A stretch of 64,000 nucleotides of DNA from Brooklawnia propionicigenes (GTDB taxonomy: Bacteria; Actinomycetota; Actinomycetes; Propionibacteriales; Propionibacteriaceae): assembly GCF_030297015.1 (NCBI RefSeq), contig NZ_AP028056.1:630939-694938 (forward strand), read 5' to 3'. Both the position numbers and the translations under genes were made by a program. This document shows, piece after piece, positions 64-40,786 of this stretch (positions within the stretch are counted from its first letter, which is position 1; every line of letters starts with the position of its first letter). The notes beneath the pieces were generated by a model. It was not told where the DNA came from. It worked only from the letters and a program-made list of their open reading frames with translations, and searched no databases.

Positions 64-984
64 ATGGCTGTCTTGCCTGAAGGTGTCAGCTGGCGCAAGG
101 TCACTATCTGGTCGGTCGCCGCTGTGGCCGCCCTTGCGCTTGCGGTGCTGCTCGCCCGCTTCTTGATCAGCCTGCCCACGGTTGCAGCGTTCATCGAGCG
201 CTATCCGGGGGTCGCCACTGCTCCGGAGTCTTCTCCGGTAGGCCTGCCCGGATGGCTGCGATGGCAGCACTTCCTGAACATGTTCTTCATGATCATGATC
301 ATCCGGGCGGGGTGGCTGGTCCGCACGACTCAGCGTCCCAAGGCGTTTTGGACCCGCGACAACACGAAGTTCATCAAGACCGCGGGAGAGCCGACGAAGA
401 TCAGCTTCAACCTGTGGATTCACCTCGCCTTCGATGTCTTCTGGGTGCTGAATGGGGTTATCTTCATCATCTTGCTGTTCGTCACCGGCCAGTGGATGAG
501 GGTGGTGCCGACCAACTGGGATGTCTTCCCCAACGCGGTGTCCGTAGGCCTGCAGTACCTGTCGCTCGACTGGCCCACCGAACACAGCTGGGCCCACTAC
601 AACGCGCTGCAGCTGCTGACCTACTTCATCACGATCTTCATCGCCGCACCGTTGAGCCTCATCAGCGGCTTCCGGATGTCGCCATCGTGGTCAACGCGTT
701 GGACCCGGGCAGGAAAGCTCCTGCCGCTCGAGGTGACCCGGAAGATCCACGTCGGTGTAATGGTGTATTACCTCTTGTTCATCGTGGTGCACGTGACGCT
801 GGTCATGGCTACCGGCGCGCTGCGCAACCTGAATCACATGTATACCGGGACCGACGACGTCAGCTGGACGGGATTCTGGTACTTCGCAGCATCCATGGTG
901 GTCGTTGTGATCGGCTGGGTGCTCGCCCGTCCGATGTTCCTGCAACCGATCGCCTCGATCGGCGGAAAGGTCACCGCACGCTGA
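64..984 (+). CDS. cytochrome b561-like membrane subunit
   Basis: The 306-residue protein has about five hydrophobic segments (near residues 15-35, 68-82, 122-142, 185-205, 230-255 and 270-290) separated by short charged loops. Histidines lie in or next to several of them, including HFLN near 71, IHL near 117, IHVG near 229 and VVHV near 240. This is the layout of di-heme cytochrome b subunits that pass electrons between quinone and a soluble oxidoreductase. A GAGGGA Shine-Dalgarno stands before the ATG, so it probably continues an operon entering from the left. The partner enzyme is outside the window, or is the flavoprotein at 2764-4812. Family assignment is fairly sure; the specific complex is not. 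Confidence 0.75.
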   Translation: MAVLPEGVSWRKVTIWSVAAVAALALAVLLARFLISLPTVAAFIERYPGVATAPESSPVGLPGWLRWQHFLNMFFMIMIIRAGWLVRTTQRPKAFWTRDNTKFIKTAGEPTKISFNLWIHLAFDVFWVLNGVIFIILLFVTGQWMRVVPTNWDVFPNAVSVGLQYLSLDWPTEHSWAHYNALQLLTYFITIFIAAPLSLISGFRMSPSWSTRWTRAGKLLPLEVTRKIHVGVMVYYLLFIVVHVTLVMATGALRNLNHMYTGTDDVSWTGFWYFAASMVVVVIGWVLARPMFLQPIASIGGKVTAR

Positions 985-20721: not shown

Positions 20722-21342
20722 TCAACCAACCTCACAGCCGGCTCCAGGCGACACCCCGTCCCCGCATTCGTCCGCCAACCCGGCGGCGCTGATCTCGCGC
20801 ACCTCGGCGGGTGCCAGCGAGTCATGCTCCCAGTCGACATCCCGGTGCCCCCTGCCCGCCAGCACCGTCTGAAGCACGCACAGCGCGTCGCCGTGTCCGA
20901 CCAGCACGACCGTGCCGCGAGCATCGATGCGTGTTCTCAGCCACGCCAGCAACCGCCGCATGCGTTCATGGACCTGGACGATGGACTCCCCACCGCCCCA
21001 CGCGACCTCGGAGACATCCAAGCCGGCGGGGGTCGGCAGAGCCCGCAACTCACTGACGGGGCGTCCTTCGAGTTCGCCCAGGCACTGTTCGCGCAGCAGC
21101 GGGGTGACGTTGAGCCGAGCCCCCAACCGATCTGCGATTGCCTGTGCTGTCGATGCCGCCCGCACCGCGTCCGAACTGAATAGCTGAACGGGCCCGTCGG
21201 CGACCAGGCCCGCCACCGTGGCAGCCGCCGCCTCGGCTTGCAGCCGTCCGAGCTCGGTGAGCGGCGCCGGCAACGACTGCCCCAATACCAGATGGTCTCG
21301 GTTGGCGGTCGATTCCCCATGCCGCACGATCAGCAAGCGCAT
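20722..21342 (-). CDS. histidine phosphatase family protein
   Basis: A 206-residue protein of the phosphoglycerate mutase-like branch. The catalytic RHGES box is at residues 7-11, the second conserved histidine in VLVGHGDAL near 150, and LxExxLGxLEG is seen as REQCLGELEGR near 85. Members include CobC alpha-ribazole phosphatase, and cob genes lie 5 kb to the right, but nothing in the sequence singles out that substrate. The start is probably leaderless: TAGGGT lies 6 nt before the ATG (21349-21354) and there is no Shine-Dalgarno. Confidence 0.85.
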   Translation of the reverse strand: MRLLIVRHGESTANRDHLVLGQSLPAPLTELGRLQAEAAAATVAGLVADGPVQLFSSDAVRAASTAQAIADRLGARLNVTPLLREQCLGELEGRPVSELRALPTPAGLDVSEVAWGGGESIVQVHERMRRLLAWLRTRIDARGTVVLVGHGDALCVLQTVLAGRGHRDVDWEHDSLAPAEVREISAAGLADECGDGVSPGAGCEVG

Positions 21343-21486: not shown

Positions 21487-22131
21487 ATGAATCCGTATCT
21501 GATGCTCGCCGATATCGTGGCCATCACCTTGCTGATGCTCGTCTTCTACGTGCCTCGCAAGGGTCGCCGTGAACTGGTCTCCAGCTTCCTGGTCACCAAC
21601 GTCGGCGTCCTCGCCCTCGCAACCGCGATGTCGGTCGGGACGATTGCAGCGGGTCTTGGCCTCGGTCTGTTCGGTGTGCTGTCCATCATTCGGCTCCGCT
21701 CCGAAGAGCTGAGCCACCGCGAAATCGCCTACTATTTCGCTGCCTTGAGCCTGGGCTTGCTGGGCGGCCTTGAGGGGCTGCCGTTGTTGTGGAGCATCGG
21801 CCTGATGGCCCTGGTGCTGCTGGCCATCGCGATCGGCGACCATCCTCGTGTCACCGCGCATACCAGGAGCGCAGAACTGATCATCGACCAGGCCATCACC
21901 GACCCCGCCGCTCTCGAACGGCGGACCTCGGAGTTGCTCGGCGGCGTCGTCACCGACCTCGTCATCCGCCGCGTGGACTTGATCAACGACTCCACCACGG
22001 TCCAGGTTCGCTACCGTCTGCTCACCACGAATGACACCACTGCGGGCAACCAGCTCGACAAGCCGAATACCTATCAAGGCCCTTTCGAGCCCGCCATGCG
22101 GGCCACCGGAAACCGTGAGCCGCTGCGATGA
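21487..22131 (+). CDS. DUF4956 membrane protein
   Basis: A 214-residue protein whose first 115 residues hold about four membrane segments (5-21, 33-50, 52-70, 82-112) with a conserved basic stretch IIRLRSEELSHREIAYYF near 77. A soluble C-terminal domain of about 100 residues follows. This is the DUF4956 family, of unknown biochemical function. In genomes it often neighbours VTC-domain genes, as here. AAAGG precedes the ATG. The last four bases overlap the next start (ATGA), so it is the first gene of a translationally coupled operon. It could be a membrane anchor or channel for the polymer handled by the VTC protein. Confidence 0.85.
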   Translation: MNPYLMLADIVAITLLMLVFYVPRKGRRELVSSFLVTNVGVLALATAMSVGTIAAGLGLGLFGVLSIIRLRSEELSHREIAYYFAALSLGLLGGLEGLPLLWSIGLMALVLLAIAIGDHPRVTAHTRSAELIIDQAITDPAALERRTSELLGGVVTDLVIRRVDLINDSTTVQVRYRLLTTNDTTAGNQLDKPNTYQGPFEPAMRATGNREPLR

Positions 22132-22877
22132 CCGCGACGATCAGCCTCGAAGAACTCAACGAGCAAAGCGCCCTGCTCGACCGGGTGGATCGCAAGTACC
22201 TCATCAAGACCTCCGATCTGCCGGTGATCTGGAACAACCTCGATGATTGCTCCCGGGTTCTGGACATCAACGGGCTCACCTGGTTCGGCTACCACTCGGT
22301 CTACTACGACACTCCCGAGTTGGACTGCTATGCCGATGCCGGCATCGGACGACGCCGCCGCCTCAAGGTCCGCACCCGTGCTTATCTGTCCAGCGACGAG
22401 CACTGGCTCGAAGTCAAGACTCGCGGGCCACGCGGCACCACCATCAAGGACCGGCTGGCCCGCACCGGCGACTCCGGCTCGCTCTCCAGCGCCGAACGGC
22501 ACTGGATCGGTCAAACGCTCTTGTTCCGCGGCATCACCCATGCCCCCGTCGAGACCCTGCAACCAACCGTGACCACGGACTACTCACGCCGCACGATACA
22601 GATCTGTCCCGCGGATGCACCCGTCTCGCGGCTCACCATCGATGTCGGACTGACCTGTTCAACTCCGGACGACAACGCCGAATCGGTCAGTTTCGACGAG
22701 TACACCATCGTCGAAACCAAGGGCTCGCCGCGGCCATCACGGGCCGACCGGCAGCTGTGGACGATGGGTCACCGACCCCTTCGGGTCAGCAAATTCGGAA
22801 TCGGGGTCGCACTGCTCAACCCGGAACTGCCCGACTACAAGTGGCACCGCATCATCAAGCACGAGTTCGCCGCCTAA
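22128..22877 (+). CDS. VTC domain protein, polyphosphate-polymerase-like
   Basis: A 249-residue triphosphate-tunnel protein of the VTC family, named after the yeast polyphosphate polymerase Vtc4. The alternating charged tunnel strands are visible: RVDRKYLI (18-25), VYYDTPEL near 60, RRRRLKVRTRAYL near 77, WLEVKTRGPRGTTIKDR near 94, TTDYSRRTI near 148, LTIDVGL near 166, TIVETKGSPRPSRAD near 189 and VSKFGIG near 220. No membrane segment is seen. Bacterial members have little experimental work behind them; polymerising or cleaving phosphate chains is inferred from the fold. It is coupled to the DUF4956 gene by a 4-bp overlap. Confidence 0.88.
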   Translation: MTATISLEELNEQSALLDRVDRKYLIKTSDLPVIWNNLDDCSRVLDINGLTWFGYHSVYYDTPELDCYADAGIGRRRRLKVRTRAYLSSDEHWLEVKTRGPRGTTIKDRLARTGDSGSLSSAERHWIGQTLLFRGITHAPVETLQPTVTTDYSRRTIQICPADAPVSRLTIDVGLTCSTPDDNAESVSFDEYTIVETKGSPRPSRADRQLWTMGHRPLRVSKFGIGVALLNPELPDYKWHRIIKHEFAA

Positions 22878-22903
22878 ACCCACCCGATCGTCAGGACAAC
22901 ACA

Positions 22904-24493
22904 ATGAATCATTCGAAGATCACCACATCGATTGTCGGCTTCGCCTTGGCCGGGCTCACCCTGGCCGGCTGCGGTTCGTCCGATCTCACCGCGACTGGCT
23001 CCAGCGCCAGTTCGGTCAACAGCTCGAGCTCGACCTCGTCCAGCACCGCGACCACCGTCGACTACACCCAATACGCTGACGTGCTCTCCGATAACAAGGA
23101 ATCGCACGCCGACTCCAACGATGCCGACTACGACGCCTCCAAGGCGACGACGATCACGCTGGCCGATGACGACGTCACCATCAGCGAGCCCGGCACCTAC
23201 ATCCTCAGCGGCACCCTGACCGATCACAGTGTCACGATCGACTCGTCGGCAGACGGCAAAGTCAAGCTCGTGCTCGACAACGTCACCATGACGTCGTCGG
23301 TGAACTCGCCGATCATCGTGACTGCCGCCGACGAGGTCGTGATCATCCTGGCCGACGGATCCACCAATACCGTCACCGACACCTCGGCGCACAGTGCTGC
23401 CGAATCCGACTCCGATGCGCCGAACGCTGCGATCTTCTCGATGGACGATCTCACCATCGGCGGCAACGGTGCCCTCACGGTCACCTCCACCGCCAGCGGG
23501 GTCGACGGCATCGCCAGCAAGGATGGCCTGGTCATCCTCGCCGGTGACATCACCGTGGACGCAGCAGATGACGGTATCCGCGGCAAGGACTACCTCATCG
23601 TCGAAGGCGGCACCATCAGCGTGAAGTCCGCCCAGGACGGCCTGAAATCCACGAATGAGGACGACGACACCGTCGGTTACGTCTACGTGAGCGGTGGCAC
23701 CGTCACCATCGATGCCGGAGACGACGGCGCACACGCGGAAGGTGACCTGCTGGTCTCCGGCGGGAACCTGACGATCACCAACTCCTACGAAGGCCTCGAG
23801 GGAGCAAACATCGTCATCGCGGGCGGGGTCGTGGATGTGACCTCCAGCGATGATGGCCTCAACGCCACGCAGGGCACATCCAACGATTCGGCGCAGCCGG
23901 CTGACCAAGCCGGTGACACTGGTCCTGCCCAGGGCGGCGCGATGCCTCAGGGTGGCCCGATGGCCGATGGCCAGGCCCAGGGCGGCACGGCGGGTGGCAT
24001 GGGTGAGTCCAGCGACGGCTCCCAACTGATCATCACCGGCGGCGAGATCACCGTCAACGCCGAGGGCGATGGCATCGACTCCAATGGCACCGTCACGATG
24101 AGCGGCGGCACGGCGATCGTCCACGGCCCCACCAAGAGCGGCAACGGCGCTCTCGACACCACGTCCTTCGATATCTCGGGTGGCACACTGATCGCGGCCG
24201 GCAGCACCGGCATGGTGGTCACTCCCACGACCACAAGTGCCCAGGGCTGGGTGAGCGTGAATCAGACGTTGACCAGTGGACAAACCGTCGAGCTACTCGA
24301 TGGTGACACTGTGCTGGCCACATTCACCGCGGTCAAGGACGCCGGCAACATCGTCATCTCGGTGCCGGGAATCGTCAGCGGTTCGTCCTACACGGTTCGG
24401 GTCGACGATTCTGACGCGGGCAGCGTCACTGCGGACCAAGCGTCCGCCGGCGGCGGAATGGGTCGGGCCGGCGACCAGTCCTGGCAGCGATGA
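22904..24493 (+). CDS. carbohydrate-binding domain lipoprotein with beta-helix-like repeats
   Basis: A 529-residue secreted lipoprotein. The signal peptide ends in the lipobox LAGC (Cys at about residue 23), and a Ser/Thr-rich linker follows. The body consists of short repeating units of the type G-G-x-hydrophobic-T-V/I with many Asp and Ser, for instance DGIASKDGLVILAGDITV and SGGTVTIDAGDDGAH, as in the right-handed beta-helix proteins annotated as carbohydrate-binding domain (DUF4353). A Gly/Gln/Met/Pro-rich insert lies near residues 325-375. It is probably fixed to the outer face of the membrane and binds a glycan or phosphate polymer. Its stop overlaps the next start (ATGA). Confidence 0.85.
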   Translation: MNHSKITTSIVGFALAGLTLAGCGSSDLTATGSSASSVNSSSSTSSSTATTVDYTQYADVLSDNKESHADSNDADYDASKATTITLADDDVTISEPGTYILSGTLTDHSVTIDSSADGKVKLVLDNVTMTSSVNSPIIVTAADEVVIILADGSTNTVTDTSAHSAAESDSDAPNAAIFSMDDLTIGGNGALTVTSTASGVDGIASKDGLVILAGDITVDAADDGIRGKDYLIVEGGTISVKSAQDGLKSTNEDDDTVGYVYVSGGTVTIDAGDDGAHAEGDLLVSGGNLTITNSYEGLEGANIVIAGGVVDVTSSDDGLNATQGTSNDSAQPADQAGDTGPAQGGAMPQGGPMADGQAQGGTAGGMGESSDGSQLIITGGEITVNAEGDGIDSNGTVTMSGGTAIVHGPTKSGNGALDTTSFDISGGTLIAAGSTGMVVTPTTTSAQGWVSVNQTLTSGQTVELLDGDTVLATFTAVKDAGNIVISVPGIVSGSSYTVRVDDSDAGSVTADQASAGGGMGRAGDQSWQR

Positions 24494-25395
24494 CCGACGG
24501 CCGGCCCAAGGTATCGCGGCGAGCCGTGCTGCTCGGCGGGCTGACGGCGCTGGCCGCTACCGGCACCGCCAGCGCCTGGGCGCTCGATCGGTTCGTGATC
24601 GAGCATGCCCAGGTCACCGGGGTCTCGCAACTGGACTCCTCGGCCTCTCCCGACGACAACGCGTTGGCAGACCCGAAGGTCACCATCACCACCTGGACGA
24701 CAGGCGCCGACGACGACCTGGTCACCGGCTACATCGCCGACATCAGCACGGCGGACGCTCGCCAGATCCGAACCGCATTCGCCGACGACACCTACGGCGA
24801 GAACATCATCGAAAACCCCTCGGTGATCGCCGCCCGCGTCGGGGCGGCCCTGGCCATCAACGGCGACTACTACGGATTCCGCAGCGAAGGCATCGTCATC
24901 CGCGACGGCATCGCCTTCCGCGACAAGGGCACCCGCGATGGACTGGCGCTATATTCCGACGGGCAACTGAGGGTGTACGACGAAACCACGATCAGCGCTC
25001 AGGAGCTCGTCGATGCCGGCGTCTGGCAGACCTGGTCGTTCGGTCCCGGGTTGATCATCGACGGACAGATCCAAGCCGGCATCGACGACGTGGAGATCGA
25101 CACAAACGTCGGCAACCACTCGATCCAGGGCGAACAGCCGCGCACCGCGATCGCGATGATCGAACCGAACCACTACCTGTTCGCCGTGATCGATGGACGC
25201 TCGCCGGGCTACAGCCGCGGGGTCACCATGACCGGACTCGCTCAGCTTCTCGCCGGTCTGGGTGCTCAGGTGGCCTACAACCTGGACGGCGGCGGCTCAT
25301 CGACGATGGTCCATGACGGCCAGCTGGTCAACAACCCCCTCGGCCAGGGCAAGGAACGCGGCACCAGCGACATCATCTGGACCACCGGAGGCTAG
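24490..25395 (+). CDS. phosphodiester glycosidase family protein (NAGPA domain)
   Basis: A 301-residue exported protein. The N-terminus has a twin-arginine motif (VSRRAVLLGG, residues 8-17) before a hydrophobic stretch, suggesting Tat export or a membrane anchor. The rest is the NAGPA fold, named after the human enzyme that removes GlcNAc from a phosphodiester. Key blocks are AAINGDYYGFRSEGIVI near 120, FGPGLIIDGQ near 185, PRTAIAMIE near 217 and the hallmark NLDGGGSSTMV near 263. It may trim or transfer sugar-phosphodiester units on an envelope polymer. It is coupled to the lipoprotein gene and to the glycosyltransferase gene 6 bp later. Confidence 0.88.
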   Translation: MTDGRPKVSRRAVLLGGLTALAATGTASAWALDRFVIEHAQVTGVSQLDSSASPDDNALADPKVTITTWTTGADDDLVTGYIADISTADARQIRTAFADDTYGENIIENPSVIAARVGAALAINGDYYGFRSEGIVIRDGIAFRDKGTRDGLALYSDGQLRVYDETTISAQELVDAGVWQTWSFGPGLIIDGQIQAGIDDVEIDTNVGNHSIQGEQPRTAIAMIEPNHYLFAVIDGRSPGYSRGVTMTGLAQLLAGLGAQVAYNLDGGGSSTMVHDGQLVNNPLGQGKERGTSDIIWTTGG

Positions 25396-25400
25396 CAGCC

Positions 25401-26483
25401 GTGGCCATGGTCATCCTCATACCCAGCTACGAGCCCGATCGCAGACTACTGACCCTCCTGACCCACCTGTCCGGTCAGCAGATCGTCATCGTGGACGACG
25501 GCTCGAGCCAGCGCTACGCCCACTGGTTCGCCGCAGCCGAACGTCTCGGTTGCACCGTCATCCATCACCGGATCAACCGAGGTAAAGGCAAGGCACTGCG
25601 TACCGGGTTCGAGTACATCGCCCGGCACTTTCCGGGCGAGCCGGTGGTCTGCGCCGACGGCGATGGTCAACACACACCGGCCGACATAACCAAGGTCGCC
25701 GATGCCCTCGACGACGGCGACCCCAACATGGTGCTGGGTGTGCGGGAATTCTCCGGCAAGGTCCCGCTGCGGTCACGGATCGGCAATGCCGCAACGAGAT
25801 CGCTCTTCCGGGCAGCAACCGGACTGGCGATCAGCGACACCCAGACAGGGCTGCGCGCCTATCCCGCACGAATGCTCAGCTGGCTGTGCACGATCGACGG
25901 CGACCGGTTCGACTATGAGCTCATCCTCCTGGTGAGGGCGAGCCAGCAGGGGATGCGCGTCCGGCAGGTACCCATCAAGACCGTCTACGAGGACGGCAAC
26001 GCGTCCAGCCATTTCCGGCCGGTCCGAGATTCCTGGCTCATCTACCGCCCCTTGCTGGGATTCATCGGCAGTTCGCTGCTGGGCTTCGGCATCGACTGCG
26101 CGATGCTCGCGCTGCTGCTGGCCGGCACCGGTGTGCTGACCCTGTCGGTGATCGGCGCCCGGCTGGTCAGCGCGACAGTCAACTACACGGTCAACCGCCG
26201 CTACGTCTTCGCCGCTCAAGCGCCCCTTGCGGTGCGCCAGACACTCCCCGGCTATGCCGCGCTGGCCGTCGTCGTCCTGATCGGCAACCTCGTCCTGATG
26301 TGGACGCTCACCCCGCTCACCGGCGCAGCAGTCGCGAAGATCGTTACTGAGGTGTCCTTACTTACTGTCAGCTATGTCGTCCAATCCACCCGGGTATTCG
26401 CGCATCGCCACCGAGCCCAGCACGAGGACACCGCACCGGCGCCCGACGATTCCGACGCTGTGCAAAAATTAGGCGTCCGCTGA
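25401..26483 (+). CDS. GT2 glycosyltransferase fused to a GtrA-like membrane domain
   Basis: A 360-residue fusion. Residues 1-215 are a family 2 glycosyltransferase: IPSYEPD near 7, VDDGSS near 33, NRGKGKALRTGFEYI near 60, the DXD-like ADGDGQH near 88, and SDTQTGLRAYP near 145, as in polyprenyl-phosphate glycosyltransferases (GtrB, DPM1-like). Residues 225-335 hold four membrane helices of the GtrA family (SLLGFGIDCAML, VSATVNYTVNRRYVF), proposed to flip the lipid-linked sugar. It ends the five-gene operon and could supply the sugar for the extracellular polymer. GTG at 25401 or ATG at 25407 may be the start. Confidence 0.88.
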   Translation: MAMVILIPSYEPDRRLLTLLTHLSGQQIVIVDDGSSQRYAHWFAAAERLGCTVIHHRINRGKGKALRTGFEYIARHFPGEPVVCADGDGQHTPADITKVADALDDGDPNMVLGVREFSGKVPLRSRIGNAATRSLFRAATGLAISDTQTGLRAYPARMLSWLCTIDGDRFDYELILLVRASQQGMRVRQVPIKTVYEDGNASSHFRPVRDSWLIYRPLLGFIGSSLLGFGIDCAMLALLLAGTGVLTLSVIGARLVSATVNYTVNRRYVFAAQAPLAVRQTLPGYAALAVVVLIGNLVLMWTLTPLTGAAVAKIVTEVSLLTVSYVVQSTRVFAHRHRAQHEDTAPAPDDSDAVQKLGVR

Positions 26484-26502: not shown

Positions 26503-27585
26503 ATGATGACCATCGATCCTGGTTCGCTGCTGGGCAGAACCATTTCATCCATCACCCCCACCGACTCCAAAGCGCTCGCAGCCGCCGAGGACCGACAGTG
26601 TCAGTTGACCAAGCCACCGGGATCCCTGGGACTGCTGGAAGTCATCGGCTGCCAGCTGAGTGCGATCTGTGGCCAGGTACCGCCACCGGTACCCACTCAT
26701 CCGGTATTGGCAGTCTTCGCGGGCGACCACGGAGTCTACGAGCAGAACATCACCTGCTGGCCGCAAGAGGTCACCGTGCAGATGCTCATCAACATGTGCT
26801 ACGGCGGCGCGTCCATCAATGCGTTGGCGCCCGAGACCGGCACCCAGATCTGGCCGGTCGACATCGGGTTGGCCAACGGTGTGCCGGATGCTCCGGGGCT
26901 GCGCCGCCTGCGGGTGCGCAGCGGTACCGCTGACTTCACCCAGACCTCCGCGATGACTCGGGAGGAAGCTCAGCGCGCGATCGAGGTGGGCATTGCCCTG
27001 GCCGACCAGGCCGTCGCCGGCGGCGCAGACGTGCTGTTGACCGGCGAAGTCGGGCTCGGAAACACCACCTCGGCGTCGGCACTGATCGCGGCGATGACCG
27101 GTACCGACCCCCAGCTGACCACCGGACGCGGCGCCGGCTCCGATGACGTCATGCTGCAGCGCAAGGTCGATGTCGTTCGCCGCGGCATCGCCCTGCACGA
27201 TCCCGATCCGTCCGATCCGCTCGGCGTGCTGGCCGCGCTGGGCGGCCTCGAGCTGGCGGGCATGGCCGGCTTCATGCTCGGGGGCGCGGCCCACCGAGTC
27301 CCGGTGATTCTCGACGGCGTGCTCAGCTGCTCCGCGGCGCTGGTGGCCACCGGTCTGCAGCCCGATCTCATCGGTTATCTGTTCGCAGGTCACCTCGGTG
27401 ACGAGCCGGGCATCAAGGTAGCGCTCGAGGCGCTGGGGCTGCCGGCTCTGTGCGATCTCGAGCTGCGGCTCGGTGAAGGTAGCGGCGCCCTGATGGCGCT
27501 GCCGATCATCCGCGGTGCCGCCCGGGTGCTGCGCGACATGGCCACCTTCGCCGACGCCGGGGTGTCCGGCAAGGTGGACGAGTGA
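26503..27585 (+). CDS. cobT: nicotinate-nucleotide--dimethylbenzimidazole phosphoribosyltransferase
   Basis: At 360 residues it has the usual CobT length. It makes alpha-ribazole phosphate for the lower ligand of cobalamin. Typical blocks are KPPGSLGLLE near residue 38, VFAGDHGV near 73, GEVGLGNTTSAS near 180, TGRGAG near 208 and the catalytic-site Glu in DLELRLGEGSGALMALPII near 322. GGAAGGA precedes the start. It follows the GT2-GtrA gene by 19 bp, so it may be read through from that operon. No cobalamin riboswitch could be recognised in the gap, which is too short for one. Confidence 0.95.
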   Translation: MMTIDPGSLLGRTISSITPTDSKALAAAEDRQCQLTKPPGSLGLLEVIGCQLSAICGQVPPPVPTHPVLAVFAGDHGVYEQNITCWPQEVTVQMLINMCYGGASINALAPETGTQIWPVDIGLANGVPDAPGLRRLRVRSGTADFTQTSAMTREEAQRAIEVGIALADQAVAGGADVLLTGEVGLGNTTSASALIAAMTGTDPQLTTGRGAGSDDVMLQRKVDVVRRGIALHDPDPSDPLGVLAALGGLELAGMAGFMLGGAAHRVPVILDGVLSCSAALVATGLQPDLIGYLFAGHLGDEPGIKVALEALGLPALCDLELRLGEGSGALMALPIIRGAARVLRDMATFADAGVSGKVDE

Positions 27586-28127
27586 GCGAGCCTCGGATCG
27601 CGCGACTGCTGGTGCTGGGCGGTGCCCGCTCGGGCAAGTCGACCTTCGCCGAACAGCACTTCGCGCATGCCCCGGCCGTCGACTACCTTGCCACGTCGCA
27701 GGTGCCCGACGACGATCCCGAATGGGTCGAACGCGTCCGCGTGCACCGGCGGCGGCGCCCCTCGCACTGGACGACCATCGAGACCCTTGAGCTCGCCGGC
27801 GAACTGTCGCGGGAGACCACCACACCGTTGCTCATCGACTGCATGACCGTTTGGCTGACTCGCCAGATGGATCTGGCGGGAATCTGGGATGAACGGCCGG
27901 GTTGCGATGAGGCCCTGAAGGCCGCCGTCGAGGAGGCCGTCGGGGCGTTCGCTCGCGCGACCAGGCCCGTGGTCGCGGTCAGCAACGAGGTCGGGCAGGG
28001 CCTGGTGCCTGCTGAGGCGGGCAGCCGGCGCTTCCGCGACGAAATGGGCGTGCTCAACATGCGCCTGGCCGAGGTCGTGGACGAGGTCTGGTTCTGCACC
28101 GCCGGTATTCCGGCCAGGCTGAAGTGA
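27582..28127 (+). CDS. cobU: adenosylcobinamide kinase/adenosylcobinamide-phosphate guanylyltransferase
   Basis: A 181-residue bifunctional CobU (CobP) that phosphorylates adenosylcobinamide and then transfers GMP to it. The P-loop GGARSGKST is at residues 12-20, followed by YLATSQVPDDD near 32 and VHRRRRPSHWTTIE near 49. A second conserved block, DCMTVWLT, lies near 86 and SNEVGQGLVP near 132. GTG start overlapping the cobT stop (GTGA), and its own stop overlaps the cobS start in the same way. The three genes are thus translationally coupled and cover nucleotide-loop assembly. Confidence 0.94.
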   Translation: MSEPRIARLLVLGGARSGKSTFAEQHFAHAPAVDYLATSQVPDDDPEWVERVRVHRRRRPSHWTTIETLELAGELSRETTTPLLIDCMTVWLTRQMDLAGIWDERPGCDEALKAAVEEAVGAFARATRPVVAVSNEVGQGLVPAEAGSRRFRDEMGVLNMRLAEVVDEVWFCTAGIPARLK

Positions 28128-28966
28128 GCGGCGCCACAGGTGCGGCACCCCGCCGGTCCGGTCTGGTACTGGCGGCGGGATTCTTCAGCATCATCCCGAT
28201 GCCGGCATTCACTGAGATCGGCGAGAACGAAACCCGCCGGGCTTTGCGCTGGTTTCCCACCCTGGGCGCGCTTTTCGGATTGGCGGCAGGTCTGGCCGGT
28301 GCCGCGACGCTGCTAGTGAGTGGGGCTCACTTACTGGCAGCCGTCATCGTGCTCCTTATCTGGCAGGCATTGGCCGGCGCGATGCATCTGGACGGCCTGG
28401 CCGACTGCTTCGACGGGCTGGCTGCCTTGGGCAGCCGCAAAGAAGGACGTGACGCCGCCCGCGCGCTGGAGATCATGCGCACCCCCGACACCGGTGCCAT
28501 GGGTGTCGCAGCAATCGTCCTGGTCTTGTTGGTGCAGGTCGGCGCCTTGTCGGCAGCCCCCGATGCACGCACCCTGCTCGTGCTGGCGATTCTCGCTCCG
28601 GCCGTCGGGCGGGCCGCGATCCTGATCGCCTCCCGCCCCGGTGTGCCCGCTGCCCGCAAAGGTGGCTTCGGGGCGCTGTTCCACGAGGTGACGCCGCCCA
28701 CCCAGATCGCCATCCAGATGCTGCTGATCGCCGCAGTCGCTGTCGGCTTGGGCTGGTGGGCAGCCGGATGGGTCGGCGCCATCGGGCTGGGCTGCTCACT
28801 GGCGATCGCCGTGCTGGTCTCATTGGTCTGGGTGCACCGGCTGGTCGGCGCCTTCGGCGGGCTGAGCGGTGACATGTTCGGCGCCATCATCGAGGTCACC
28901 ACGGCAGTCTGCGCACTGGCCGGTTCGCTCGCGCTGTCCGCCGCCTTCCGAGTCGCCGCATTCTGA
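28124..28966 (+). CDS. cobS: adenosylcobinamide-GDP ribazoletransferase
   Basis: A 280-residue integral membrane cobalamin synthase that joins adenosylcobinamide-GDP and alpha-ribazole. Six or seven membrane segments are visible, with the family signature WQALAGAMHLDGLADCFDGLAA near residue 85 holding the Asp-rich active site, and GRAAILIASRPG near 162. It begins with GTG at 28124 overlapping the cobU stop and ends the cobTUS unit. Start choice is supported by the 4-bp overlap. Confidence 0.93.
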   Translation: MSGATGAAPRRSGLVLAAGFFSIIPMPAFTEIGENETRRALRWFPTLGALFGLAAGLAGAATLLVSGAHLLAAVIVLLIWQALAGAMHLDGLADCFDGLAALGSRKEGRDAARALEIMRTPDTGAMGVAAIVLVLLVQVGALSAAPDARTLLVLAILAPAVGRAAILIASRPGVPAARKGGFGALFHEVTPPTQIAIQMLLIAAVAVGLGWWAAGWVGAIGLGCSLAIAVLVSLVWVHRLVGAFGGLSGDMFGAIIEVTTAVCALAGSLALSAAFRVAAF

Positions 28967-40266: not shown

Positions 40267-40375
40267 GCAGGCCGCACTCAGTCCCGCTGCTTACGAACTC
40301 CACAACGGTTGCTAGTTTGTCCGATCTGGAGCAACCACCATTCGGGGGCCTGGTAGTCAAACCAGTGAAACTGAG

Positions 40376-40786
40376 GGACGAGCCGGCCTGTAAGCCGGGT
40401 TCTGTGCCCCATGGGGGCGGTGATCATCCATCTGCGACCGCCATTGCTGGCGGCCTTCCGCTGGGCCTTGCGACCCAGCCGTGCGACCTACCCGGAAGCT
40501 CGGGCGGGCAGCCCTCAGTTACTTCCGCAGACGCCCGCAGGCGTCCTCTTGGTCTTGCTCCAGGTGGGGTTTGCCGTGCCGCGACTGTCACCAATCGCGC
40601 GGTGGTCTCTTACACCGCCGTTTCACCCTTACCCGGACCGGGATCCCCGAGGGGAACGGTATCCGGGCGGTTTGTTTTCTGTGGCACTGTCCCGCGGGTC
40701 ACCCCGGGTGGGCGTTACCCACCACCTCGCCCTGTGGAGCCCGGACTTTCCTCAGCTTGCGCCGCGATCACCCAGCCGACTCGTCC
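40376..40786 (-). ncRNA. rnpB: RNase P RNA
   Basis: A bacterial type A RNase P RNA of about 411 nt on the minus strand. The 5' end GGACGAGTCGG pairs with the 3' end CCGGCTCGTCC to form P1 (one G-U pair). Conserved core elements read on the minus strand are GAGGAAAGTCCGGGCTCC (P4 5' strand and J), CCACAGAAAACA, and the 3' ACCCGGCTTACAGG. It is the catalytic RNA that matures tRNA 5' ends. It begins 12 bp after the stop of the ABC transporter gene on the same strand, so its promoter must lie inside that gene. Confidence 0.95.

Follow-up and report, generated by a model that had tools for sequence, protein, structure and literature searches.

Several described systems contain parts of the five-gene operon reported here. 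The yeast VTC complex (Vtc4) shares with it a VTC tunnel domain with aligned charged positions, and the VTC gene of the operon adjoins one for a membrane partner. The Cthe_2159 beta-helix protein (4peu, 4phb), from a family for which carbohydrate-binding data exist, has the same domain as the lipoprotein that the operon encodes. The Gram-positive Pel accessory group cotH-PPP-DUF4956-DUF4832 offers a further likeness, the combination of a polyphosphate polymerase (PPP) and DUF4956 with a link to surface polysaccharide (PMC7112168). Three-component glycosylation, represented by GtrA-GtrB-GtrX and CsbB-YfhO, resembles the operon in combining a GT2 synthase and a membrane domain of the GtrA type with a partner that acts outside the cytoplasm (PMC7117936, PMC11127046). 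Finally, genes 241-242 (GtrA-GtrB) of L. johnsonii EPS1 form a pair needed for glucan, and a further glycosyltransferase was not found in their immediate vicinity, as at our locus (PMC7117936). Our literature search found no description of the five-gene set or of the NAGPA-GT2 pair within it, in agreement with the original prediction, which knew of no described pathway with this set.

The operon lies on the plus strand of the window, the 64,000-nucleotide stretch of Brooklawnia propionicigenes DNA that was analysed, and its neighbouring genes overlap by 4 bp or lie at most 26 bp apart (Table 1). The DUF4956 and VTC reading frames overlap by 4 bp, as do those of the lipoprotein and NAGPA; VTC is separated from the lipoprotein by 26 bp and NAGPA from GT2-GtrA by 5 bp, the latter gene starting with GTG. 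Rechecking the open reading frames reproduced the predicted coordinates and tight one-strand spacing, and all five proposed families (DUF4956, VTC, beta-helix lipoprotein, NAGPA and GT2-GtrA) exceeded the curated Pfam cut-offs, which for the beta-helix domain of the lipoprotein, scanned with its reading frame taken from 22895, is 25.8 bits. NCBIfam at an E-value of 0.001 gave no family for the first four proteins, and for GT2-GtrA it gave only matches far under the equivalog cut-offs.

Table 1. Genes of the operon, with positions in the window and Pfam matches
Feature	Position	Strand	Pfam match
DUF4956 membrane protein	21487..22131	+	PF16316 167.5 bits, E 2.9e-49
VTC-domain triphosphate-tunnel protein, predicted polyphosphate polymerase type	22128..22877	+	PF09359 74.1 bits, E 1.6e-20
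Lipoprotein with Cthe_2159-type beta-helix	22904..24493	+	PF14262 235 bits, E 1.2e-69
NAGPA-family phosphodiester glycosidase, membrane-anchored or Tat-exported	24490..25395	+	PF09992 120.6 bits, E 1.1e-34
GT2 fused to GtrA/DPMS membrane domain, predicted polyprenyl-phosphate sugar synthase	25401..26483	+	PF00535 56 bits, PF04138 38.7 bits

The VTC protein comprises 249 amino acids, and by Pfam it contains the VTC domain alone. A profile of 16 relatives matched yeast Vtc4 (3g3q) with an E-value of 1.2e-13, and R78, K80, R82, R84, E95, K97, K107, R109, R154, R168, D172, E196, K198 and K222 are invariant in the 16 sequences. These charged residues fall in stretches aligned with the Vtc4 tunnel, where we take their counterparts to have tunnel roles; the tunnel-aligned residues expected of the proposed triphosphate-tunnel protein are thus present and invariant, and the protein is predicted to be of the polyphosphate polymerase type. 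Bulk polyphosphate would not require the VTC protein, since the organism carries a PPK1-family gene as well. A single scan of viral contigs with this protein gave zero confirmed copies; VTC and DUF4956 proteins were found in several bacterial phyla and in one archaeal control genome. The AF2 model of DUF4956 (mean pLDDT 78.3, pTM 0.62) exhibits five long N-terminal helices followed by a C-terminal beta-alpha-beta-beta domain, and five membrane helices replace the four that had been claimed. Literature passages on the DUF4956 family give it no function.

The lipoprotein begins with a lipobox-like LTLAGC, identified by eye from the translation, and its residues 76-290 match the Cthe_2159 structures (E 5.3e-35); the signal and the PF14262 domain agree with the lipid-anchored beta-helix protein that had been proposed. 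The NAGPA profile matches 3ohg and 6pkg, its AF2 model resembles solved NAGPA catalytic domains (6pki and others; Foldseek best E 1e-13, TM about 0.6), and the signature NGDYY, DGR and N-x-DGGGS is invariant in 30 sequences. The family, fold and motifs of the predicted Tat-signal phosphodiester glycosidase therefore hold; its signal is a Tat-like SRR-x-x-L seen by eye in the translation, and a membrane anchor is an alternative, the model having one helix at residues 10-36. The GT2-GtrA protein matches the solved synthase DPMS (5mlz), with 13.8 bits for the second domain, and both aspartates of its CADGDGQH motif are invariant in an alignment of six sequences, which points to a polyprenyl-phosphate sugar synthase. 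Its fused domain had been called flippase-like, an unsafe label for a GtrA/DPMS membrane domain whose stretch is matched within that synthase. Six homologues in plasmid records (L170-L175; 32-40% identity) have no NAGPA match in their flanks, and in two Lactobacillaceae plasmids with such homologues a PilZ-bearing synthase takes the place of NAGPA.

A survey of 117 genomes of the family was performed to follow these genes beyond the window. All 25 genomes with the NAGPA subfamily carry DUF4956 and VTC, and 24 of them carry Cthe_2159; in four of the 25 (G249, G208, G225 and G013) NAGPA is more divergent, at about 225-245 bits. The nine NAGPA genera all fall inside the 11 DUF4956 genera among 29 (p = 5e-6), a genus-level count that is the exception among p-values that otherwise ignore the species tree. 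By contrast, the negative control, MgtC versus DUF4956, overlapped in 4 of 12 (p = 0.36). Consistent with the claimed neighbourhood of the two families, DUF4956 adjoins VTC in 34 of the 36 genomes that have both, and it lies less than 3 kb from Cthe_2159 in 30 of 35. This core occurs without the NAGPA/GT2 pair in 15 of the 40 DUF4956 genomes of the family, among them G269, from the species of the window, in which the end of a contig truncates DUF4956 and searches for VTC, Cthe_2159 and NAGPA found none. A phosphate-related setting was seen in the three alphaproteobacterial plasmids examined, where the core is followed by a phytase-like gene, in one case with an inorganic phosphate transporter between them. 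The pair itself hardly ever occurs in the absence of the core. In 13 family genomes, NAGPA and DUF4956 are separated by more than 5 kb or sit on different contigs; GT2 adjoins NAGPA in 12 of these 13, and the order of the two is swapped in three. In 5 of the 25 genomes, NAGPA and DUF4956 share a contig but have more than 20 kb between them.

NAGPA loci were also profiled directly, using the best 80 of at least 556 confirmed relatives, every one from Actinomycetota; this survey shares at least three genomes with the first (L039/G004, L048/G233 and L076/G213), and the two are not independent. GT2-GtrA lies less than 200 bp after NAGPA in 79 of these best 80 loci. In one of the 79 (L061), a truncated GT2 abuts a truncated lipoprotein end to end, which looks like a single deletion or an assembly fault across the intervening stretch, and the locus was dropped as support for a lipoprotein-only arrangement. 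In the eightieth (L115), the GT2 match is split across two reading frames, which rules out a true NAGPA-GT2 fusion. Within the same best 80, the DUF4956-VTC-lipoprotein trio is present in the examined flanks of 45 loci, as trio then pair (9), pair then trio (29) or with the trio on the opposite strand (7). Of the 35 genomes whose pair showed no full trio nearby, 33 have DUF4956, and in seven of these 33 NAGPA and DUF4956 share a contig with more than 20 kb between them; DUF4956 was not found in the other two, one being the L061 genome. Protein distances correlate across 44 of the 45 trio-bearing loci (L080, with its lipoprotein split in two reading frames, was left out), a correlation also expected from the shared species tree. 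Among 149 genomes sampled evenly across the phylum, the NAGPA subfamily was found in the window's own genome alone. Outside Actinomycetota, Paenibacillus cellulosilyticus, of the Bacillota, carries the two modules on separate records (L036 and L037).

Because co-occurrence persists without adjacency and in several arrangements, the five genes appear to be functionally linked. These results strongly support the original prediction that their products act together, and the side-by-side search that it had proposed found near-obligate co-occurrence; the chemistry that it sketched, a phosphate polymer with sugar transport and decoration or trimming outside, stands as a hypothesis. In all likelihood the genes make up a single cell-envelope system that has not been described before, which is better read as two modules: a DUF4956-VTC core, usually with the lipoprotein, and a removable pair of NAGPA and GT2-GtrA.

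Families and linkage are observed; the chemistry that we infer from them, in which NAGPA draws sugar from a GT2-made lipid donor beside a VTC-DUF4956 polymer, is put forward as a tentative preference. DUF4956, with its five helices and small cytosolic domain, would hold the VTC protein at the inner face of the membrane, where the latter would make a phosphate polymer that DUF4956 might control or pass outward. GT2-GtrA would place a sugar on polyprenyl phosphate, and NAGPA, anchored at the outer face, would draw the sugar from this lipid and pass it to a surface acceptor, replacing the GT-C of ordinary three-component glycosylation. The lipoprotein may retain the polymer, as the carbohydrate-binding name of its family suggests. 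NAGPA could act on a polyprenyl-phosphate sugar because that lipid is a sugar-1-phosphodiester, the class of bond that the family cleaves. However, the name of the solved animal enzymes refers to alpha-GlcNAc phosphodiesters, whereas polyprenyl-phosphate sugars from GT2 enzymes are usually beta-linked, and NAGPA may therefore not accept such a lipid. In favour of a pathway that needs no GT-C, neither the 12 other families recurring in at least six of the loci from L035 onwards (one example each) nor the nine window proteins on the flanks of the operon include a glycosyltransferase by Pfam, and no linked GT-C was found among them; against it, a GT-C gene might lie at an unlinked site. A bolder form of this reading, in which the phosphodiester glycosidase, in place of a GT-C, is the transferase that takes sugar from a polyprenyl-phosphate donor and works on a phosphate polymer made by the VTC protein and exported by an MgtC-like DUF4956, would be a new class of surface glycosylation; we consider it improbable.

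Glycosyl-1-phosphate polymers occur in actinobacterial walls, and NAGPA might instead trim such a polymer while an unlinked GT-C uses the lipid sugar of GT2-GtrA, both genes serving the same polymer. This reading, unlikely but deserving of weight, is in line with the activity of animal NAGPA, which takes GlcNAc off a phosphodiester on mannose and can also hydrolyse UDP-GlcNAc (PMC12024695). However, strict NAGPA/GT2 adjacency, kept away from the core or in swapped order, is better explained by a shared intermediate, and families for polymer synthesis do not recur next to the pair in the surveyed loci (best 80 of at least 556).

It is less likely still that the core is regulatory, with DUF4956 as an MgtC-like sensor, the VTC protein making or breaking a small phosphate signal, and exopolysaccharide and the pair switched by phosphate or ATP status. 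The domain after the DUF4956 helices would suit such a role, as would a possible MgtC relationship: hhalign of 18 diverse DUF4956 sequences against 10 MgtC sequences gave a probability of 75.5 (best control 4.5) and, for one pair, an E-value of 2.4e-5. The MgtC profile used 10 of 13 loci, leaving out two without the frame-picking motif and one weak hit. With narrower sequence sets, however, the probability fell to 0.2 and 21.7. Pfam MgtC gave one homologue an E-value of 1.7. Comparison of the model with the PDB was not decisive: Foldseek returned nothing with an E-value of 0.001 or lower, and the best VIA-align Z was 6.2, to SecDF, over 101 residues. Because the score varies with the alignment, we call DUF4956 a possible distant relative of MgtC. 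The regulatory reading also draws on two Bacillota plasmids in which genes for DUF4956 and a polyphosphate polymerase lie close to those for glycosyltransferases and, in Gram-positive bacteria, on their position with CotH beside pel genes (PMC7112168). Against it, the VTC protein retains the charged positions that align with the polymerase tunnel of Vtc4.

More doubtful again is a rescue role, in which NAGPA merely hydrolyses surplus polyprenyl-phosphate sugar outside the cell to free the lipid carrier and no polymer is decorated. UshA of B. subtilis, which has another fold, offers a precedent as a cytoplasmic UndP-sugar hydrolase proposed from genetics, an activity that the authors state they did not demonstrate (PMC11898649); yet, with no acceptor, a cell would gain nothing by making a lipid-linked sugar only to destroy it outside, and the association with DUF4956-VTC and the lipoprotein would have no explanation. 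Chance neighbourhood, which gains a little from the sister genomes G005 and G001, where DUF4956-VTC stands alone with a phosphatase-like gene on one side and cob genes on the other and the block is thus not fixed, is effectively ruled out by genome-wide co-occurrence that holds at more than 20 kb and by the three gene arrangements.

The tie between DUF4956-VTC and a sugar module of two genes, for which an intermediate can be predicted, opens the role of these proteins to tests in soil actinobacteria. One such organism is Paenarthrobacter aurescens TC1 (L043), which has all five genes in one cluster. Were NAGPA to use a polyprenyl-phosphate sugar, a family of sugar-removing enzymes would gain a synthetic role.

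The locus differs from each of the described systems. The yeast VTC complex carries its own Vtc membrane domain, whereas the neighbour in the window is DUF4956 and the putative polymerase, at 249 amino acids, has just the VTC domain by Pfam. Unlike the Cthe_2159 protein, the lipoprotein adds a lipobox-like signal and an extra C-terminal part, and it is linked to DUF4956-VTC. The Gram-positive Pel arrangement, with CotH beside VTC/DUF4956 next to pelDEADAFG, was not found at the operon: by Pfam, CotH and Pel are absent from the five operon proteins, the nine flanking proteins and the recurring locus families, and the operon has instead the Cthe_2159 lipoprotein, NAGPA and GT2-GtrA. In L. johnsonii EPS1, GtrA and GtrB are two genes, and the part of the account on them names neither NAGPA nor VTC (PMC7117936). 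In contrast to three-component glycosylation, no GT-C recurs beside the pair in the surveyed loci, and the conserved partner of the synthase is NAGPA.

The five genes of the operon (DUF4956, VTC, a Cthe_2159-type lipoprotein, NAGPA and GT2-GtrA) very probably encode a real five-protein system of two modules: a core of DUF4956–VTC, usually with the lipoprotein to form a trio, and a NAGPA–GT2 pair. As originally noted, the genes are tightly spaced on one strand, either overlapping by 4 bp or separated by 26 bp and 5 bp. All five proteins match Pfam families above curated cut-offs; NCBIfam, at E 0.001, assigned none of the first four. The host genome, a single 3.21 Mb contig, contains one DUF4956, one VTC and one PPK1-family match. 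Three cobalamin-type genes (cob) start 19 bp downstream; given this spacing and the presence of cob genes after DUF4956–VTC in two sister genomes, they may be co-transcribed with the operon. ARAGORN found no tRNA in the window, and a class A RNase P RNA is its sole Rfam match above gathering score.

Coordinates of the features (window-relative unless another record is named)
Feature	Record	Position	Strand	Remark
Five-gene operon: DUF4956, VTC, Cthe_2159, NAGPA, GT2 + GtrA/DPMS_TM	window	21487-26483	+	Pfam
His_Phos_1 gene	window	20722-21342		upstream of operon, divergent
DBI_PRT (CobT-type), CobU, CobS genes	window	26503-28966		downstream of operon
RNase P RNA class A	window	40375-40783	-	Rfam
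DUF4956 helices	DUF4956 protein	residues 3-25, 28-47, 53-71, 77-94, 100-117		AF2 model
DUF4956 beta-alpha-beta-beta domain	DUF4956 protein	residues 127-178		AF2 model, after helices
DUF4956–VTC + phytase-like gene	L033	7944-10256
DUF4956–VTC + phytase-like gene	L151	6944-9270
DUF4956–VTC + phytase-like gene	L152	6953-10993
Response-regulator/histidine-kinase families near pair	L111	2984-4078
Response-regulator/histidine-kinase families near pair	L093	4404-6458
GT2-GtrA, then GT2–PilZ synthase	L170	4007-8919
GT2-GtrA, then GT2–PilZ synthase	L171	3986-8910

Linkage was surveyed in 117 genomes of the host's family, Propionibacteriaceae, where the NAGPA subfamily (E at most 1e-30) occurs in 25, DUF4956 in 40, VTC in 37 and Cthe_2159 in 39. 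Rare co-occurrence, which would tell against the predicted joint action, is not what we found: the 25 NAGPA-subfamily genomes contain DUF4956 and VTC in 25/25 cases each and Cthe_2159 in 24/25, and DUF4956 occurs without the NAGPA subfamily in 15 of its 40 genomes. DUF4956 adjoins VTC in 34 of the 36 genomes having both, which bears out their expected neighbourhood. NAGPA lies within 5 kb of DUF4956 in 12/25 genomes and within 20 kb in 14/25; in the other 11, the two share a contig in five and lie on different contigs in six. Where the distance exceeds 5 kb (13 genomes), GT2 is still beside NAGPA in 12, with the order swapped in three. Co-occurrence thus persists when the genes are apart, and the link does not rest on neighbourhood alone; with this genome-wide linkage, the predicted joint action of the five products is very probable. 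As a negative control, MgtC against DUF4956 in 47 genomes gave an overlap of 4/12 (p 0.36, one weak MgtC match included). When 149 genomes were sampled evenly across the phylum, the NAGPA subfamily appeared only in the window's own genome; the pair is therefore not universal. In genome G276, DUF4956 and VTC are each matched three times, in close pairs, and the NAGPA subfamily is not matched; multiplication of the core does not require the pair.

The NAGPA alignment, scanned against genome contigs, found at least 556 confirmed relatives, of which the best 80, all from Actinomycetota, were analysed. GT2-GtrA follows NAGPA in the same orientation, starting no more than 200 bp after it, in 79/80 (truncated in L061), and at the 80th locus, L115, it is present and split across two frames. 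The pair also occurs in plasmid records of Actinomyces oris and Paenibacillus cellulosilyticus. Three genomes of genus g8 (L186, L187, L188) carry its two genes in the opposite order, and their NAGPA, at about 225 bits, is more divergent. The full trio lies within the pair's flanks (up to 10 kb) at 45 of these best 80 loci: the trio comes first in 9 and the pair in 29, and in 7 the trio is on the opposite strand. Of the remaining 35, three show the lipoprotein only, two show VTC plus lipoprotein at the end of the locus, and 30 show none of the trio, eight of these having a flank shorter than 5 kb. DUF4956 was nevertheless found in 33 of these 35 genomes, above cut-off in 32; genome-wide search did not find it in G296 (L069) or G319 (L061). 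At L076 and L102 it sits beside VTC just beyond the locus end, which puts the trio some 10 kb from the pair. At L048, L083, L089, L095, L106, L108 and L115, DUF4956 and the pair share a contig, identified by its length, at a distance of more than 20 kb; in the rest, DUF4956 is on another contig. DUF4956-bearing genomes thus stand behind 78 of the best 80 loci.

ORFs from these 80 loci and four plasmid loci were clustered, and besides the five, 12 families recur, each in 6 to 13 loci. Typed from one scanned example each, they are a histidine kinase, response regulator, GAF-ANTAR, ABC-type, epimerase, hydrolase, desaturase, adenylate kinase, oxidoreductase, luciferase-like protein, another ABC transporter and an antisense frame without family; none of these examples was GT-C, CotH or Pel. 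The response-regulator and histidine-kinase families lie near the pair in 12 and 13 loci; such genes are common anyway, and they possibly provide two-component control. On two Lactobacillaceae plasmids (L170, L171), the gene after GT2-GtrA encodes a GT2 synthase carrying a PilZ domain of the c-di-GMP type, which suggests a regulated exopolysaccharide drawing on lipid-linked sugar.

Within the genus, the full set occurs in G000, G002, G003 and G004. G005 and G001 have DUF4956–VTC alone at the same site ahead of the cob genes, G006 has the trio together with NAGPA–GT2 far off on the same contig, and in G269, labelled as the window's species, all that was found is a fragment of DUF4956 at the end of a contig. 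The operon is therefore a core plus a movable block. Elsewhere, the three alphaproteobacterial plasmids viewed carry DUF4956–VTC and then a phytase-like gene, with an inorganic phosphate transporter between them in the Nitratireductor plasmid, a phosphate-centred version of the core. The two Bacillota plasmids viewed have VTC–DUF4956 together with CotH and glycosyltransferases; in P. cellulosilyticus, VTC, a divergent DUF4956 and the lipoprotein family are adjacent, and the pair is on another record. PMC7112168 describes the DUF4956–polyphosphate-polymerase neighbourhood, along with cotH and DUF4832, next to the pel genes of Gram-positive bacteria, and PMC2879425 reports VTC, CotH and glycosyltransferase genes at one Clostridium perfringens locus. 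Surface-polysaccharide or phosphate genes are thus recurrent companions of the core.

The VTC profile matches yeast Vtc4 (3g3q) at 1.2e-13. Tunnel residues, whose loss would count against the predicted function, are retained: charged residues corresponding to the Vtc4 tunnel lining are invariant in 16 sequences. The lipoprotein matches the solved Cthe_2159 structure. NAGPA has a single N-terminal helix followed by its domain, with animal uncovering enzymes and 3ohg as best solved matches. GT2-GtrA matches the DPMS structure and, weakly, a second time in its membrane region; six sequences all keep the aspartates of A-D-x-D-G-Q-H. The DUF4956 model (AF2, 35 sequences; mean pLDDT 78.3, pTM 0.62) has five helices, not the four predicted; the longest conserved stretch lies around GLGLGLFGVLSIIRLRS. 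An alignment of 18 diverse DUF4956 members against 10 MgtC sequences gave probability 75.5 and score 41.7, against 25.1 for reversed MgtC, at most 18.2 for 19 shuffles and at most 19.3 for four alignments from three other families. The probability depends on the set (0.2 with 35 actinobacterial members, 21.7 with a 16-member set), and a relationship to MgtC is possible from these sequence comparisons.

Families, motifs, linkage and module structure are direct observations, to which we add a concrete mechanism. GT2-GtrA would make a polyprenyl-P-sugar, which NAGPA, predicted to be anchored outside, would use; VTC would make a phosphate polymer that DUF4956 would control or pass on, and the lipoprotein would bind the product. 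The openly licensed papers searched contain no description of the five-gene set or of the NAGPA–GT2 pair, and the system appears new as a combination. In ordinary three-component systems, the last step is performed by a further glycosyltransferase (PMC7117936, sections 8 and 13), of GT-C type in PMC11127046, whereas none recurs alongside the present pair; NAGPA is placed in the last step for this reason. PMC11898649 proposes a UndP-sugar hydrolase of another fold in B. subtilis, and cleavage of such lipids therefore has a proposed precedent.
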